NCBI RefSeq assembly: GCF_000422545.1
Contig: NZ_KE383874.1
Span: 181,214-245,213 of the forward strand
DNA from: Desulfocurvibacter africanus subsp. africanus DSM 2603
GTDB taxonomy: Bacteria > Desulfobacterota > Desulfovibrionia > Desulfovibrionales > Desulfovibrionaceae
Length of the DNA stretch: 64,000 bases
Direction of reading: 5' to 3'
A program made the translations under genes and the position numbers. The notes under the pieces were generated by a model that was not told where the DNA came from, did not search any database, and worked only from the letters and a program-made list of their open reading frames with translations. How positions within the stretch are numbered: the first letter of the stretch is position 1; every line of letters begins with the position of its first letter. Of the stretch, positions 21,414 to 52,084 are shown piece after piece.

Positions 21414-23291
21414 ATGCGTCTGAAATCATTATACATCAGCCAGTATAAAAACCTGACGGATTTCACTCTAAATTTTGACAGCAACAGCTTCATTGATGTC
21501 TTTGTTGGAAAAAATGGAACCGGTAAATCTAACCTATTTGAAGCTATTATCAAAATTTTTCAGCATCTATATGAATTTGATAACGGTAAAACAACCATCG
21601 ATTTCAATTATACTCTTAGCTACACAATCAACGACATAGAGACTAGTTTAGAATGGACTAATGGCGGATTAACAATCAATGGCAACGAACGTAAAACTAT
21701 CGGCAACACGCCACTACCAGACAACGTCTTAATCTACTACTCTGGGCATAATGATACAATAACAGAATTAGTGAAAAGATATGAAGAAGAATTCAGAAAG
21801 CGAATAAAAGATGCTGAATTCAGCGAAAGCCGCCCTTTCATCGGAATTAGTCGAGAATATAAAGATATGCTTTTATCTTTTTTTCTGATGCAACCAGGAA
21901 CAAATATAGCAAGAGAGTGCCTTTGCAAAAAACTGGGCATTGAGAATGTATCGTCTAATGTTATTATGGTACTTCAGCGGCCAATTTTTGCAAAAAAGAA
22001 CCGCAAAATCGAAGACTTCGATCCTACAACGCATTTCTGGGGCGCCGCAGGCATTACTCGCCACTTTTTGGACAAATTAGTCAATTGCGTTAAAGGTGAG
22101 TTTAATCATAGTACTTTATACGACAAAGCAAAAGGATTCTATCAAATACCAATAAACCTTGAGCTCTTTCGAAAACAATTTGCCAAGGATAATCTAATAG
22201 ATGTTTTTCGCCAGTTCGACAATTTGAAAACCTTAGGCATGCTGACACTGATTTCAGTACCAGTCCGACTAACCAATGGTCTAGATGCATCTATAGTTCA
22301 CTTTAGTGATGGACAATTTCAATCCGTTTACATCTATTCAATTATCGAATTATTTAAGAACAGTAATTGCATTACACTGCTAGATGAACCAGATGCATTT
22401 TTGCATCCTGAATGGCAGTTTGAGTTCCTAACACAGATATTTAGCATTACGGAGGCAGCCGCTAAAAGCAACCACGTGCTGATGACTAGCCACAGCGCTG
22501 CGACTCTTTGCTGTTTTGAGACACTTCACCTTAATCTTTTTCAAATTGAAAACTCCAAAGTATGTTGTTCCAAACGCTCAAAGAAGGAAGTTATCAATGA
22601 GCTTTCAAATAGCTTTATTCAGTACGCAGAGGACGAAAGTAAATTACTCATCGATAACGTGATCAGATCTTCTCAAAAACCAATATTATTTGTTGAGGGA
22701 CTATCTGATGTTTTTATTCTAAACACAGCCTACATGAAGCTCTTTCCTAGAGAAGATATACCGATACTGGTTCAAGATGCTTTTAGCCGAGGCTTCCTTA
22801 AATCACTATTTGGCCGTAGAGATATTTTTGATACATATCCTCATAAACATTTCTTTGCGCTTTTTGATTTTGACGATGCTTATGACGACTGGAGAGGACT
22901 AGGAGGGGAATATATAACAACAGAAATTGAAATGGGACTTTGCAAAAAACTCACGGATAAGAATGCTCATACGCTTCTTCTGCCAATTCCAAACAATCAA
23001 TTACGAGCTCAGGTCTGGGATGAAGCTAACCCAATTGAAAAGATAAAACCTAAGCCTTACTTTTGTATAGAGCACATTTTTTGGAGCGTTAGTAAACTAC
23101 ATCAATGGTTTTATGTTGATACTAAAACAGGTCTTGTGAAATTCAAAGGAGATAAGCACAAAGTAAAGTTTGCCAAAGATGTTGTACCAACGCTTGACGC
23201 AAATTCTTTTGAGCCATTTCGCCCAATGTTCAATCTTATCTTGGAAAAGTCAGGATTAATGACTCAACACATCACCAGCCCGACAAAATAA
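21414..23291 (+). CDS. OLD-like AAA ATPase with C-terminal TOPRIM-type nuclease domain
   Basis: 625 residues, starting 9 nt after hsdS. The N-terminus has MRLKSLYISQYKNLTDFTLN followed by Walker A GKNGTGKS (32-39). The ABC-type Walker B, LLDEPDAFLHPEW, places Asp324-Glu325, followed by a switch His in LMTSHSA. The C-terminal third has TOPRIM-like motifs: EGLSD (Glu428, Asp432) and DFDD (Asp485, Asp487). This ATPase-TOPRIM plan is that of OLD-family nucleases, used in several anti-phage systems. The gene is visibly more AT-rich than hsdRMS, suggesting separate acquisition. No UvrD-like helicase partner (as in Gabija) or separate TOPRIM partner (as in PARIS) follows, so it may be a class 1 OLD protein or an accessory of the type I system. 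Confidence 0.8.
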   Translation: MRLKSLYISQYKNLTDFTLNFDSNSFIDVFVGKNGTGKSNLFEAIIKIFQHLYEFDNGKTTIDFNYTLSYTINDIETSLEWTNGGLTINGNERKTIGNTPLPDNVLIYYSGHNDTITELVKRYEEEFRKRIKDAEFSESRPFIGISREYKDMLLSFFLMQPGTNIARECLCKKLGIENVSSNVIMVLQRPIFAKKNRKIEDFDPTTHFWGAAGITRHFLDKLVNCVKGEFNHSTLYDKAKGFYQIPINLELFRKQFAKDNLIDVFRQFDNLKTLGMLTLISVPVRLTNGLDASIVHFSDGQFQSVYIYSIIELFKNSNCITLLDEPDAFLHPEWQFEFLTQIFSITEAAAKSNHVLMTSHSAATLCCFETLHLNLFQIENSKVCCSKRSKKEVINELSNSFIQYAEDESKLLIDNVIRSSQKPILFVEGLSDVFILNTAYMKLFPREDIPILVQDAFSRGFLKSLFGRRDIFDTYPHKHFFALFDFDDAYDDWRGLGGEYITTEIEMGLCKKLTDKNAHTLLLPIPNNQLRAQVWDEANPIEKIKPKPYFCIEHIFWSVSKLHQWFYVDTKTGLVKFKGDKHKVKFAKDVVPTLDANSFEPFRPMFNLILEKSGLMTQHITSPTK

Positions 23292-36026: not shown

Positions 36027-36238
36027 GCCTGGAGAACAGCCGCAGGTAGGCCTTGCGTCCCTTGTGCCTGGTTCGAGATCCGGGGAACCACAACTCGCCG
36101 GCGGCTTCAACTTTCGATTGGCACTAAGCGTGGGAGGTTTTCGAGCCCCTAAGCTCAACAAGATTTGACATGGGGCATTAGTGAGGTAGAGTGGCATTCG
36201 CAATTCGCGAACAAAGAACAGGACGTCCAGGAGGTCCT

Positions 36239-36757
36239 ATGCTGAAGCCCCAGGACATCGTCGTTCTGCTCAAGCTCACCACTTCTGATGCGAAAATCAT
36301 AGCTGACTGGTCGTTTACCTCTCTTTCGGGCGAGCTGTTCATGAGCAGGTCCGAGGTGCATGCCAGCTTGAAGCGCGCCGAGAAATCCAAGCTGTACAGC
36401 AGCTCTCTGCGCAGGCCGAACAAGCTAAGATTATTGGAGTTCTTAAAGCATGGCCTGAAGTATGCGTTTCCCCTGGAGATCGAGGGGAAACCGCAACGGG
36501 GCATTCCGACAGCTGTCTCGGCTGAGCCCATGAGCAATCAGATGGGCCATGCTGGTACTTCCTACGTCTGGCCGGACCCGGAAGGTTCCATGGAGGGTGT
36601 AAGCGTGAAGCCGCTCTACAAGAGCGTCCCGGCCGCTGCCAAAAAGGACCCGAAGCTGTACGAGGTCCTGGCTCTCGTGGATAGCCTGCGCAGCGGCAGC
36701 GCACGTGAGTTCGAGGTCGCCTCCAAGGAGCTTGAGCGCAGGTTTGGCGCCGCATGA
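36239..36757 (+). CDS. Winged-helix protein paired with a nucleotidyltransferase
   Basis: 172 residues from the ATG at 36239, which has AGGAGG upstream. The N-terminal part, LKPQDIVVLLKLTTSDAKII, then ADWSFTSLSGELFMSRSEVH and ASLKRAEKSKLY, reads as a winged-helix DNA-binding domain. The C-terminus (YEVLALVDSLRSGSAREFEV) is helical. It overlaps the nucleotidyltransferase gene by 4 nt. In AbiE-like type IV toxin-antitoxin modules an HTH antitoxin precedes the nucleotidyltransferase toxin, which fits this order. Function by analogy. Confidence 0.75.
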   Translation: MLKPQDIVVLLKLTTSDAKIIADWSFTSLSGELFMSRSEVHASLKRAEKSKLYSSSLRRPNKLRLLEFLKHGLKYAFPLEIEGKPQRGIPTAVSAEPMSNQMGHAGTSYVWPDPEGSMEGVSVKPLYKSVPAAAKKDPKLYEVLALVDSLRSGSAREFEVASKELERRFGAA

Positions 36758-37506
36758 TCGTCCGCAAAAACCTCGATCGAATCAGGGCGCAGATCGAGAC
36801 ATCCGCCCAGAGGCTTGGCCCTGTCCTGCCTGAAGTCGTCTATCTGGGAGGGGCAATTACGCCCCTCCTGCTCACGGAAGATACCCCCAAGGACGTGCGG
36901 TACACCCATGACCTCGATGTGATCATCGAGATCCTGACCAGAAAGGATTTCTACACTCTTCAGCACCAGCTCGCTGATTTGGGATTTCGGCAGCCGCCAC
37001 CCGAAGAATGGGAGGAGGGAAAGCAGGCTCCCCTCTGCAGGTGGGTGCTCCCCCCGAGCCAGAGCTATCCCGACAAGATCATCATGGATATCATGCCGAC
37101 CAGTCCGGATATCCTGGGACACACCAACAAGTGGTATGGGATGATCATCCAGCAAGGGCATACTTCATTGGCCCTGGAATGCGGGCTGGAGATCAGGCAC
37201 GCGAGGGCTCCGTTTTTCCTGGCATCGAAGTTCGAGGCCTTTTTCGACCGGGGGATCGTTGACCCGACCATAAGCAAGGACCTTGAGGACATCGTGGAGC
37301 TGTTCAACGGGCGAAAGGAGCTACTGGATGAAGTAAGCCAAAGCCCTCAAGTGCTGCAGCAGGGCCTTGGCGACTACTGCAGACGTTTTCTGGCCGATCC
37401 GACCCTCGAAGAGGAACTTGCCGCCCACCTCATGGGCTCGTCCGCTTATCAGCGGGAGCGCTTGCCGAAGATTCAGGCCATCATCCAGGCAATCGCAGCG
37501 CTTTGA
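36754..37506 (+). CDS. AbiEii-like nucleotidyltransferase (putative toxin)
   Basis: 250 residues. The nucleotidyltransferase core is seen in VVYLGGAITPLLLTEDTPKD, then HDLDVIIEI (metal-binding D-x-D), and a third acidic strand, KIIMDIMP. The FFLASKFEAFFDRG segment with following helices matches AbiEii/AbiGii toxin-family proteins. Paired in a 4-nt overlapping operon with an HTH protein, it is a candidate type IV toxin-antitoxin or abortive-infection module. The order (HTH first, transferase second) is consistent; substrate unknown. Confidence 0.75.
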   Translation: MIVRKNLDRIRAQIETSAQRLGPVLPEVVYLGGAITPLLLTEDTPKDVRYTHDLDVIIEILTRKDFYTLQHQLADLGFRQPPPEEWEEGKQAPLCRWVLPPSQSYPDKIIMDIMPTSPDILGHTNKWYGMIIQQGHTSLALECGLEIRHARAPFFLASKFEAFFDRGIVDPTISKDLEDIVELFNGRKELLDEVSQSPQVLQQGLGDYCRRFLADPTLEEELAAHLMGSSAYQRERLPKIQAIIQAIAAL

Positions 37507-49204: not shown

Positions 49205-49911
49205 CTCCTGCGGAGGGTATAGAGTGCAAGAAATGGAGATCACAGAGTTATTCCTATCAGGCGAAAAGGGAACTCTCTCCTCCGCTCCTTCTCGCCCGCT
49301 CTCACAACCTAAGGCCGTTCAATCATCCACGGCATCCTTACCACTTGGCTGCAGGTGCCGATCTTCACACGCAGGCTGCCAAATACAGTTTCGCCGCCGT
49401 GAATGCTTTAAAAGCCGAATGATCACCTTTCAAGACAAAGGACTGGCCCCACGGCCTTGCCCCTCTCCCTTCCTAAGTAATCATGAGATATACCGACCCA
49501 AGCTTGAAAGTTTTTTAAAAACGAGGGAATATATTTCAAAAGCTTCAACATGGACTTGGTCACAATTAAGCGCAGTATTAATCAGTCTTTATGTTCTTTA
49601 AATCGTGCAGGACTCAATAATTAAAAATTATAATTGTTTCGCTTGATACAATTTCCGTAGCTTCGCTATAGCAATAATTGAAAAACTCCTTAGATGGAAT
49701 GAGCAATTGGCACATTAATTTACTCATACAAGCCATAGACGTACTGAATCATATGAAGCCTTTCAGTAAGACATAGGTATATTTGAACGGGCAGTGGCCC
49801 ATTCAGTAGATATACAATCATAAGTCGTCTTTGAAGGGATAAATATAGCATTAGCAAGTGGCAGTGTTTTAATTTTTTATAGACAGTCTTTTTCTATTGA
49901 AAGAGAAGGCA
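49205..49911. other. Upstream region of the STAS-GHKL operon
   Basis: About 700 bases, strongly AT-rich from 49500 on, with no supported gene. At about 49435-49500 a stretch resembles the end of the phage decoration gene at 52294-52380 (shared CCCCACGGCC and GCCCCTCTCCC, then AATCAT-n-A-n-ATA-n-ACCG). The AT-rich part presumably holds the operon promoter; several TATA-like boxes make the choice uncertain. Confidence 0.45.
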
Positions 49912-51084
49912 ATGAAGAAGATATCGGAAGACAAAGTACTATACTATAAGAGACGTCAAGTTGCCAAGAAAAAGAAGGAGTCTATTGCCTCATCACGGAT
50001 AAAGCACAGAAAATACATGGACCGCGTTGTATACAGAGGCAACTTAAAACTTATAGAACTAAAACGAAAAAGAGATGATTTTATTGATAGACATTACAGT
50101 ACAAAAGTTTTTGATCAAAAAGAGATTACAATTCCAGTAGTTGGTGAATTTGGAATAGAAGAGAGCCAGCTGGCGTCATCTTTTTTTAACTATGCTGAGC
50201 AATTCATATCGAAACGTCCAGCGAAAATCGTTTTTGATCTTTCAAAGTGTACGCGTATGTGGCCATCAGCAATAACTTTGATATGCTCTTATGTGCAATG
50301 GGTAGAGTTGGTGACACGCAGGGCACAATCAGGACCAGAGATAGGCCAGATAGATTCATATGTTGCATCAGTCAACTCGTATCTACTGCATTGCGGCTTC
50401 TTTGATTATGTAGACTGCGACAGAAGAAACCTCCCAGAGGAAGGATTATATAAAGATTGTGATGTTGTCAAAATTCAAAGAGAGACGTCTAAATCCAACA
50501 TTAACAAAAAGAAAGATGAGATATCAAGTTTATTAAAGCTAAGTTCATCTTACACAAATGATGAGATAGAATTGTTTGGCGCAGTGTTAACAGAGGTAAT
50601 TAATAATGTCACTGAACATGGCATATCTCATAAAGATAAGGGCTGGTGGTTGTTGGCACAGCACCATCCAAAGCATCATATAATTTCTTTGTGCGTCGCC
50701 GACAATGGCATTGGAATAAAGAACTCTTTAGTTACTGGTCCACAAGGAGAGTATATAAAAACTAAATTGGCAGACACTAAGAACTGCGATTCTGATTACA
50801 TTGACTTTGCTATGGATGCAAATGTTAGTGGTGCTCTTGATGCTGCTACAAAAAAAAGAGGATGGGTGCGCAGACAGTTTCCTCGGGGTGCAAAACGGGG
50901 ACACGGATTGCAGACTATCCTTGAGTTTTGCACTATGTTAGGAATCCAATTGACTATTATCTCTGGCAACGGGTATATAATGTTCTCAGGTGTGGGCAAA
51001 AAAATTGCATGTGAAAGTTACGCTGGGAAAATTTTTGCTGGAACAATGTATCACCTAAGTATACCCACGAGCAGAGTTCAATAA
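49912..51084 (+). CDS. STAS-like domain fused to a GHKL (histidine-kinase-type) ATPase
   Basis: 390 residues from the ATG at 49912 (AGAGAAGG upstream; a TTG 15 bases earlier is possible). A basic N-terminus is followed by a STAS-like region (about 95-145: AKIVFDLSKCTRMWPSAITL). The C-terminal half is a GHKL ATPase: N-box LTEVINNVTEHG (Glu228, Asn232), G1 box DNGIGI (264-269), G2 box KRGHGLQTI (Gly330, Gly332). There is no phosphoacceptor His, so it resembles anti-sigma-factor kinases rather than a sensor kinase. First of three tightly packed, AT-rich genes. Function not known to me; context suggests defence. Confidence 0.8.
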   Translation: MKKISEDKVLYYKRRQVAKKKKESIASSRIKHRKYMDRVVYRGNLKLIELKRKRDDFIDRHYSTKVFDQKEITIPVVGEFGIEESQLASSFFNYAEQFISKRPAKIVFDLSKCTRMWPSAITLICSYVQWVELVTRRAQSGPEIGQIDSYVASVNSYLLHCGFFDYVDCDRRNLPEEGLYKDCDVVKIQRETSKSNINKKKDEISSLLKLSSSYTNDEIELFGAVLTEVINNVTEHGISHKDKGWWLLAQHHPKHHIISLCVADNGIGIKNSLVTGPQGEYIKTKLADTKNCDSDYIDFAMDANVSGALDAATKKRGWVRRQFPRGAKRGHGLQTILEFCTMLGIQLTIISGNGYIMFSGVGKKIACESYAGKIFAGTMYHLSIPTSRVQ

Positions 51085-51420
51085 ATGCGCACTATCAATG
51101 TCGCGAGCGACTTTTCATCCCGGCTAGATAATAGAAATGAACGCCAAGGTGATGGTCAGCATACGGCCATCGATTTTAGAAGACGTTATCTTGAACCTTT
51201 GGACAATGCAGAAGCCTGGAAAAATCTGAATGTTTTTATTGCATTGGACTTTAATGATGTCCTATCGTTGGGACCATCATTTGCGAACGAGGCTTTTGCA
51301 TACTTTACGAAGTACGCTAGACCAGAGTCCATAAGGAAAAAGATTCGATTTCTTAACATGTCTATTGTCAAGGCGATGATTCTCAACCAGGAATTGGAAA
51401 AGGGATATTCTAAGCGCTGA
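51085..51420 (+). CDS. STAS-like DUF4325 protein
   Basis: 111 residues. The start directly adjoins the previous stop (TAA ATG). The pattern VFIALDFNDVLSLGPSFANE followed by AFAYFTKY is the DUF4325 hallmark (conserved G-P/S-S-F-A/x-E-x-F). DUF4325 proteins are STAS-like and usually partner a GHKL ATPase, reminiscent of anti-anti-sigma factors. Here it should be the substrate or regulator of the STAS-GHKL protein encoded just upstream. Confidence 0.82.
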   Translation: MRTINVASDFSSRLDNRNERQGDGQHTAIDFRRRYLEPLDNAEAWKNLNVFIALDFNDVLSLGPSFANEAFAYFTKYARPESIRKKIRFLNMSIVKAMILNQELEKGYSKR

Positions 51421-51421
51421 C

Positions 51422-52084
51422 ATGAAATACAAGAGACCGATCGCTTTTTTGTTAGCTGGCTTTCTCTTGAGCATAGTTATCATTTACTTTATTGTACACC
51501 CGTTTTTCTTTGAGACATTTAGAAAAATATGCGTTCATAACCTATCCTCTCTTGAAGATGCTCGAAACTACTATGCAGTATTGGCATCTATTAGTAGCAC
51601 GGCCTTTTCTTTTTTTGGATTACTGCTTGGATATTACTATTTTGTATACAGACAGCGATATGATGAAAGAAAATGGATGAAGGAGAAATATAATAACAAT
51701 GTCGATGCATTAATATCTCTCATTGACAAAATTGATGACTCCGTTGACGAGTTGCTGGGGTTGATGGATAGCAAAAACCAAGATGCTATACGCCACAAGA
51801 TTAGACAGTCATTTGAAATCGCATCTGCCATACTTGAAAATTATCCAGGAAAAGGTAGTTTAGATAATCAACCTCTATTCGAAGCATATATTGCATTCTA
51901 TTCTTTTGTGGATAAGAACGTATATATTATGGAAGAGGATCTAAAGATGGGGTTTTCGAGAGATGTAATTGAGGATATCAAAGGATCTTTGAGGCCTCTT
52001 GTGACTAATGTTAGGCGTAATATATACCTTCATAGGCAGCAAAATGTAGAGTCGGTAAACGAAAAAATACCAATCTTATGGTAG
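51422..52084 (+). CDS. Two-helix membrane protein, third gene of the STAS-GHKL operon
   Basis: 220 residues, beginning 1 base after the DUF4325 stop. Two N-terminal membrane helices (about residues 7-29, PIAFLLAGFLLSIVIIYFIV, and 55-77, SISSTAFSFFGLLLGYYYFV) leave a long helical cytoplasmic domain (VDALISLIDKIDDSVDELLG). No enzyme motif. In candidate defence operons such a protein often acts as a membrane effector; here that is only inferred from position. AT-rich like its partners. Confidence 0.78.
   Translation: MKYKRPIAFLLAGFLLSIVIIYFIVHPFFFETFRKICVHNLSSLEDARNYYAVLASISSTAFSFFGLLLGYYYFVYRQRYDERKWMKEKYNNNVDALISLIDKIDDSVDELLGLMDSKNQDAIRHKIRQSFEIASAILENYPGKGSLDNQPLFEAYIAFYSFVDKNVYIMEEDLKMGFSRDVIEDIKGSLRPLVTNVRRNIYLHRQQNVESVNEKIPILW

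Follow-up and report, generated by a model that had tools for sequence, protein, structure and literature searches.

An AT-rich operon of three genes, lying in a 64,000-nucleotide stretch of Desulfocurvibacter africanus DNA (the whole of which is referred to here as the window), raises the question of what a kinase, a STAS protein and a membrane protein accomplish together. The first-pass annotation read it as a probable partner-switching module connected to a membrane effector. This is supported by the homology of the first two genes to VapK and VapS, a pair shown or modelled to let go of a bound toxin upon phosphorylation (PMC13373217). A VapKS-type kinase-STAS switch is well supported in this operon, and the three genes together probably form a phosphorylation-released, three-part toxin module, in other words a membrane-effector version of VapKSC.

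The operon and its three proteins

The operon occupies positions 49912-52084 of the window and consists of three plus-strand genes, referred to as gene 1 (kinase), gene 2 (DUF4325 protein) and gene 3 (membrane protein). Two of its general features had been noticed at first reading and were borne out. The genes are tightly packed, with gaps of 0 bases between genes 1 and 2 and 1 base between genes 2 and 3, and their base composition is unlike that of the surroundings, with a GC content of 0.38-0.39 over 50-52 kb versus 0.60-0.68 in the flanks (roughly 65%). Promoter and terminator scans of the operon gave nothing above chance level, and PADLOC models returned zero matches to genes 1, 2 and 3.

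Gene 1 (49912..51084, + strand) encodes a VapK-like STAS-GHKL kinase of 390 amino acids, assigned from its ATP-site motifs, fold matches and position in a kinase tree. It starts at the ATG at 49912, while an in-frame TTG at 49897 is also open. The protein comprises a basic helix (residues 6-63), a STAS-like domain (about 68-170) and a GHKL domain (about 197-385). The N, G1 and G2 boxes, initially read as intact, together form the full signature of a Bergerat fold: E228-N232-H236 (N box), D264-N-G-I-G268 (G1, DNGIG) and R329-G-H-G-L333 (G2, RGHGL), along with G377-T378. These motifs are invariant or nearly so in an alignment of relatives. Pfam gave nothing above cut-off (HATPase_c, E=0.034), PHROG 3364 was matched at 1.7e-35, and a Foldseek search with the AF2 model (pTM 0.72) matched CheA P4, SpoIIAB and SpoIIAA.

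In the same model, the N-terminus of gene 1 is one long helix spanning residues 6-63. The corresponding basic extension (49912..50100, + strand) contains 22 Lys/Arg in its first 60 residues. Similar Lys/Arg-rich N-termini were found in 10/10 kinases linked to membrane proteins (14-27 K/R of the first 60; the truncated L117 counted) and in 0/28 other kinases (2-9 K/R), so that the helix is limited to the membrane-linked branch among the kinases compared.

Gene 2 (51085..51420, + strand) encodes a VapS-like STAS protein of 111 amino acids. Its earlier assignment to DUF4325 holds, as PF14213 is matched at E=1.1e-8, exceeding the curated Pfam cut-off. The protein is a single STAS domain lacking a DNA-binding part, and it is therefore expected to act by letting go of a bound protein and not by derepression. 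Its putative phosphoacceptor, Ser65, is kept in all copies linked to a two-helix (2TM) membrane protein. More broadly, a Ser or Thr occupies the phosphosite in 36/36 aligned STAS proteins, in two registers: [S/T]-x-F in 16/16 PIN-linked proteins, and x-S-[F/W] in 9/9 membrane-linked proteins and likewise in the remaining 11/11. In a sequence-based alignment of the registers, Ser65 lies one residue after the position of VapS S48.

Gene 3 (51422..52084, + strand) encodes a membrane protein of 220 amino acids, proposed as the effector from its place in the operon, which is that of VapC. The predicted membrane protein with a helical part was confirmed: transmembrane helices lie near residues 7-25 and 52-70, close to the N-terminus, and the remainder is helical in an all-helical AF2 model of moderate confidence (pLDDT 72). 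Gene 3 has no family match, no PIN match and no informative fold match, the Foldseek hits being weak ones to four-helix sensor domains of membrane receptors. A Pfam hit to DUF3810 (E=0.002) fell below cut-off and was taken as compositional.

Relation to VapKSC and other kinase-STAS systems

The description of VapKSC dates from June 2026 (Chambers et al., EMBO J 2026, PMC13373217), and the structure of VapS2VapC2 is available as PDB 9z7o. In this system, VapS binds and neutralises the PIN-domain toxin VapC, whereas VapS with a phosphomimic at S48 does neither, and E. coli carrying the operon is protected from phage Bas42 (PMC13373217). VapK is proposed to be activated by ssDNA and then to phosphorylate VapS, which frees VapC; for the related CapK, both activation by ssDNA and phosphorylation of CapS have been shown (PMC13373217). 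An aromatic residue of VapK, F54 (W68 in CapK), has been proposed to stack on ssDNA (PMC13373217).

By sequence, genes 1 and 2 are homologous to the VapK and VapS families. A profile of kinase-linked DUF4325 proteins matches 'Escherichia VapS' of 9z7o at E=5.8e-19, and in a sister triad with a PIN toxin (L054), gene three matches VapC of 9z7o at 7e-53. A solved complex thus exists for proteins encoded at these gene positions. The operon shares with VapKSC its order (kinase, DUF4325 STAS protein, third gene) and tight packing, a STAS-GHKL kinase with an intact ATP site and no HTH, a Ser/Thr at the STAS phosphosite, and a location on islands and near defence genes. Unlike in VapKSC, the third gene of the window encodes a two-helix membrane protein rather than the PIN nuclease VapC, the kinase starts with a basic helix some 60 residues long and falls in a separate clade, and the putative phosphoacceptor Ser is shifted by one residue. 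The equivalent of VapK F54 also appears to be non-aromatic: a Leu takes its place in gene 1 in an alignment in which L054 served as a proxy for the published VapK sequence. The ssDNA trigger may consequently not carry over.

As in CapK-CapS, a STAS-GHKL kinase adjoins the gene of a STAS substrate, with linkage to immune operons and restriction-modification (R-M). CapK, however, begins with an HTH and CapS ends in a wHTH repressor domain, whereas gene 1 begins with a basic helix and gene 2 is STAS only. SpoIIAB-SpoIIAA and RsbW-RsbV likewise pair a GHKL Ser kinase with a STAS substrate; unlike these, the window operon includes no sigma factor gene, its kinase also contains a STAS-like domain, and its third partner is a membrane protein. 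Among type III CRISPR effectors in phage defence, Cap1 is reported to have a transmembrane helix pair and Csx23 to be a membrane protein (PMC12642688, PMC11014256). They resemble gene 3 as membrane proteins with a cytoplasmic control part, but are switched by cyclic nucleotides, whereas control of gene 3 is proposed to act via a bound STAS protein. A sequence match between gene 3 and these effectors was not found.

The initial remark that no described system of this composition was known is therefore correct in part. In the system published in June 2026, a PIN toxin accompanies the kinase-STAS core, while the version with a two-helix membrane protein is undescribed in the literature searched; the term 'transmembrane' is absent from the text of PMC13373217, and no other paper naming VapKSC was found in that literature. 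The finding is thus not categorically new, since its core has already been described with another effector. Nevertheless, the membrane-linked branch is distinct and recurring, with an effector type, N-terminal helix and phosphosite register of its own, and is apparently undescribed.

Recurrence and genomic setting

Profile searches and inspection of gene neighbourhoods, as advised in the first-pass annotation, showed that the three genes are not scattered without co-occurrence. Complete kinase-DUF4325-2TM triads recur in eight genomes beyond the window (L065, L066, L067, L069, L050/L068, L059, L090 and L092, in the last of which only one clear transmembrane helix was scored in the third protein), belonging to classes of Desulfobacterota and to Patescibacteria/Peregrinibacteria. 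An operon order common to nine genomes rules out a chance arrangement. A profile scan of GTDB contigs found full-length relatives of gene 1 with 40% identity in a Desulfobacteraceae (L065) and a Desulfuromonadales genome (L066), along with three more distant ones, and all five carry the kinase-DUF4325-two-TM operon. A further copy, L117, is cut by a contig end, beyond which its downstream part lies. Two fused HTH-GHKL-STAS proteins of about 345 amino acids followed by a two-TM gene (L027, L033) proved on inspection to be a different gene family.

The distribution is sporadic. Gene 1 is present once in its own genome, gave distant matches only against 394 other genomes of its phylum, and is missing from the genomes of its own family that were searched. 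In plasmids, gene 1 gave distant matches only and gene 3 none. Among viral sequences, a single-protein scan of IMG/VR with gene 1 found zero relatives, and alignment scans found one phage contig.

In a tree of 38 kinases, which included the truncated L117, the PIN-linked kinases (16/16) form their own clade with support of 100/99, and the window kinase lies outside it. All nine membrane-linked kinases and truncated L117 fall in another clade of moderate support (89/74), in which the window sub-branch is supported at 100/100. A single change of state suffices to separate PIN-linked from membrane-linked kinases on this tree. Leave-one-out profiles detect homology among third genes within the window sub-branch (window, L065, L066, L090) at 1e-25 to 1e-38, and, more weakly, within a second sub-branch (L050, L059, L067, L069) at 1e-7 to 1e-8, with L092 at 0.002. 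Compared by profile, the third genes of the two sub-branches have no detectable homology to each other. For the second sub-branch, the layout is thus common to both, while the ancestry of its membrane protein is unproven.

The predicted conservation near defence genes was found at several loci, and the following counts are purely descriptive. The triad lies downstream of hsdR-hsdM-hsdS and an AAA ATPase gene in L116, and downstream of hsdM-hsdS, RhuM and hsdR in L117. L069 has a 5mC methyltransferase nearby (Pfam) and, by reading of translations, a restriction-type gene and a serine recombinase; a serine recombinase read in the same way lies upstream of the triad in L067. Integrases were found directly upstream at tRNA-Met in L066 and beside the triad at tRNA-Arg in L118. 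No defence, integrase or recombinase neighbours were seen in L065, L050 and L059.

In the window itself, phage genes do adjoin the operon, as reported initially, with head genes encoding a major head protein (3.7e-26) and a portal (4.1e-21). Its placement at the end of an island crowded with restriction and toxin-antitoxin genes was loose, however. Of such genes, just two small GNAT/DUF1778-like toxin-antitoxin pairs adjoin the operon, while the type I R-M and RhuM genes are separated from it by 22-34 kb on the upstream side, a distance that includes a catalase-peroxidase gene among others. Genes for a PtuA-like ATPase and PDC-M21 also lie further upstream.

Several loci deserve mention in their own right. 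Within the window, an AT-rich gene for the PtuA-like AAA ATPase directly follows the type I R-M operon as another low-GC insert (21414-23291), and a gene pair without a Pfam family matches the candidate defence models PDC-M21A and PDC-M21B (36191-37506). In L116 (29-10233), type I R-M, the AAA ATPase, a 322-aa gene and the kinase-STAS-2TM triad are arranged head-to-tail as a compact defence cluster. In L112 (515-3399), a vapKSC operon of the PIN type is flanked, in an annotation by eye, by an HsdS-like gene on one side and a P-loop ATPase gene on the other, so the PIN version too nests inside R-M loci. Kinase-DUF4325 pairs without a recognised third gene occur in a Streptococcus phage (L012, 3734-4932) and a Bacteroides phage (L014, 3515-4806), the streptococcal prophage pair adjoining holin and paratox genes. 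In L045 (5519-7541), such a pair is followed by two short genes that appear by eye to be a nucleotidyltransferase/HEPN toxin-antitoxin pair, a possible third type of partner. Lastly, the IMG/VR phage contig L070 (266-1188) carries an intact DUF4325 gene (51% to gene 2) together with a window-type kinase whose reading frame is broken. It has no membrane gene, and a RecT-like gene and an exonuclease lie nearby. This may be a copy in decay or, alternatively, a decoy of the STAS protein used by the phage.

Proposed mechanism, alternatives and implications

By analogy with VapKSC, the gene 2 protein would at rest bind the cytoplasmic helical part of gene 3 and keep it inactive. Phage infection or DNA damage would give rise to a signal, ssDNA if homology is a guide, and this would activate gene 1, which would phosphorylate gene 2 at Ser65. 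Phosphorylated gene 2 would release gene 3, and the freed protein would assemble in or perturb the inner membrane, leading to a growth stop (abortive infection). The basic helix of gene 1 may tether the kinase to the membrane near its target or aid nucleic acid binding. While the homology of genes 1 and 2, the conserved motifs, the gene order and the separate clade are observed, we infer the binding of gene 2 to gene 3, the phosphorylation, the trigger and the defence role, as well as toxicity of gene 3 and membrane damage; the trigger and the toxicity of gene 3 are the least secure parts of this model, which is the most economical one.

Other explanations assign the same genes different roles. 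Gene 3 could be a sensor or anchor for envelope stress or phage entry that controls the kinase-STAS pair, with the output elsewhere, as in a stressosome. Its weak Foldseek matches to receptor sensor domains point this way, though helical bundles match each other easily, and the kinase's own basic helix could bring it to the membrane. This is unlikely, as gene 3 occupies the exact position of VapC, an effector bound by VapS, and no other output gene (sigma factor, regulator or nuclease) recurs beside the triads. Far less probable still is that the triad serves housekeeping as an ordinary sigma-factor partner switch of the RsbW/RsbV type, its membrane protein being a linked sensor. A GHKL kinase and a STAS substrate are indeed the classical anti-sigma/anti-anti-sigma pair, and there is a weak match to an anti-sigma F model (E=0.008). 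Against this stand the lack of a sigma factor gene in any 2TM triad seen, the sporadic distribution with absence from the same-family genomes searched, the foreign base composition, the mobile or restriction context, and VapK/VapS as nearest characterised relatives.

The triad could also be a DNA-damage-responsive toxin-antitoxin cargo that stabilises its carrier mobile element or prophage, with phage resistance, if any, as a side effect. The integrases at tRNA genes in L066 and L118, the serine recombinase in L067, the phage head genes next to the operon and the partly broken copy near RecT on the IMG/VR phage contig would fit such a role; against it, the triads of L116 and L117 are linked directly to type I R-M, and VapKSC protects against Bas42 (PMC13373217). 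We consider cargo rather doubtful, if somewhat more plausible than the sensor role, and it is compatible with a membrane-effector VapKSC.

The membrane-effector version of VapKSC thus remains the preferred reading, within which a more specific proposal can be made tentatively, at well below even confidence. The membrane-tethered branch may not sense ssDNA as VapK does, the basic helix may be a new sensor or anchor, and the STAS protein may gate a pore-forming protein of a new family. If true, unrelated membrane families in the two sub-branches would reflect repeated effector capture by one phospho-switch.

If the module works as proposed, the kinase-STAS pair would be a release switch of general use, open to connection with effectors that are unrelated to one another, with outputs including an RNA-cutting nuclease (VapKSC), a transcriptional repressor (CapKS) and a membrane protein (the window). 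The modularity of CBASS, Thoeris and type III CRISPR would then extend to phospho-controlled toxins. The module would also provide a searchable signature for undescribed defence loci missed by PADLOC.
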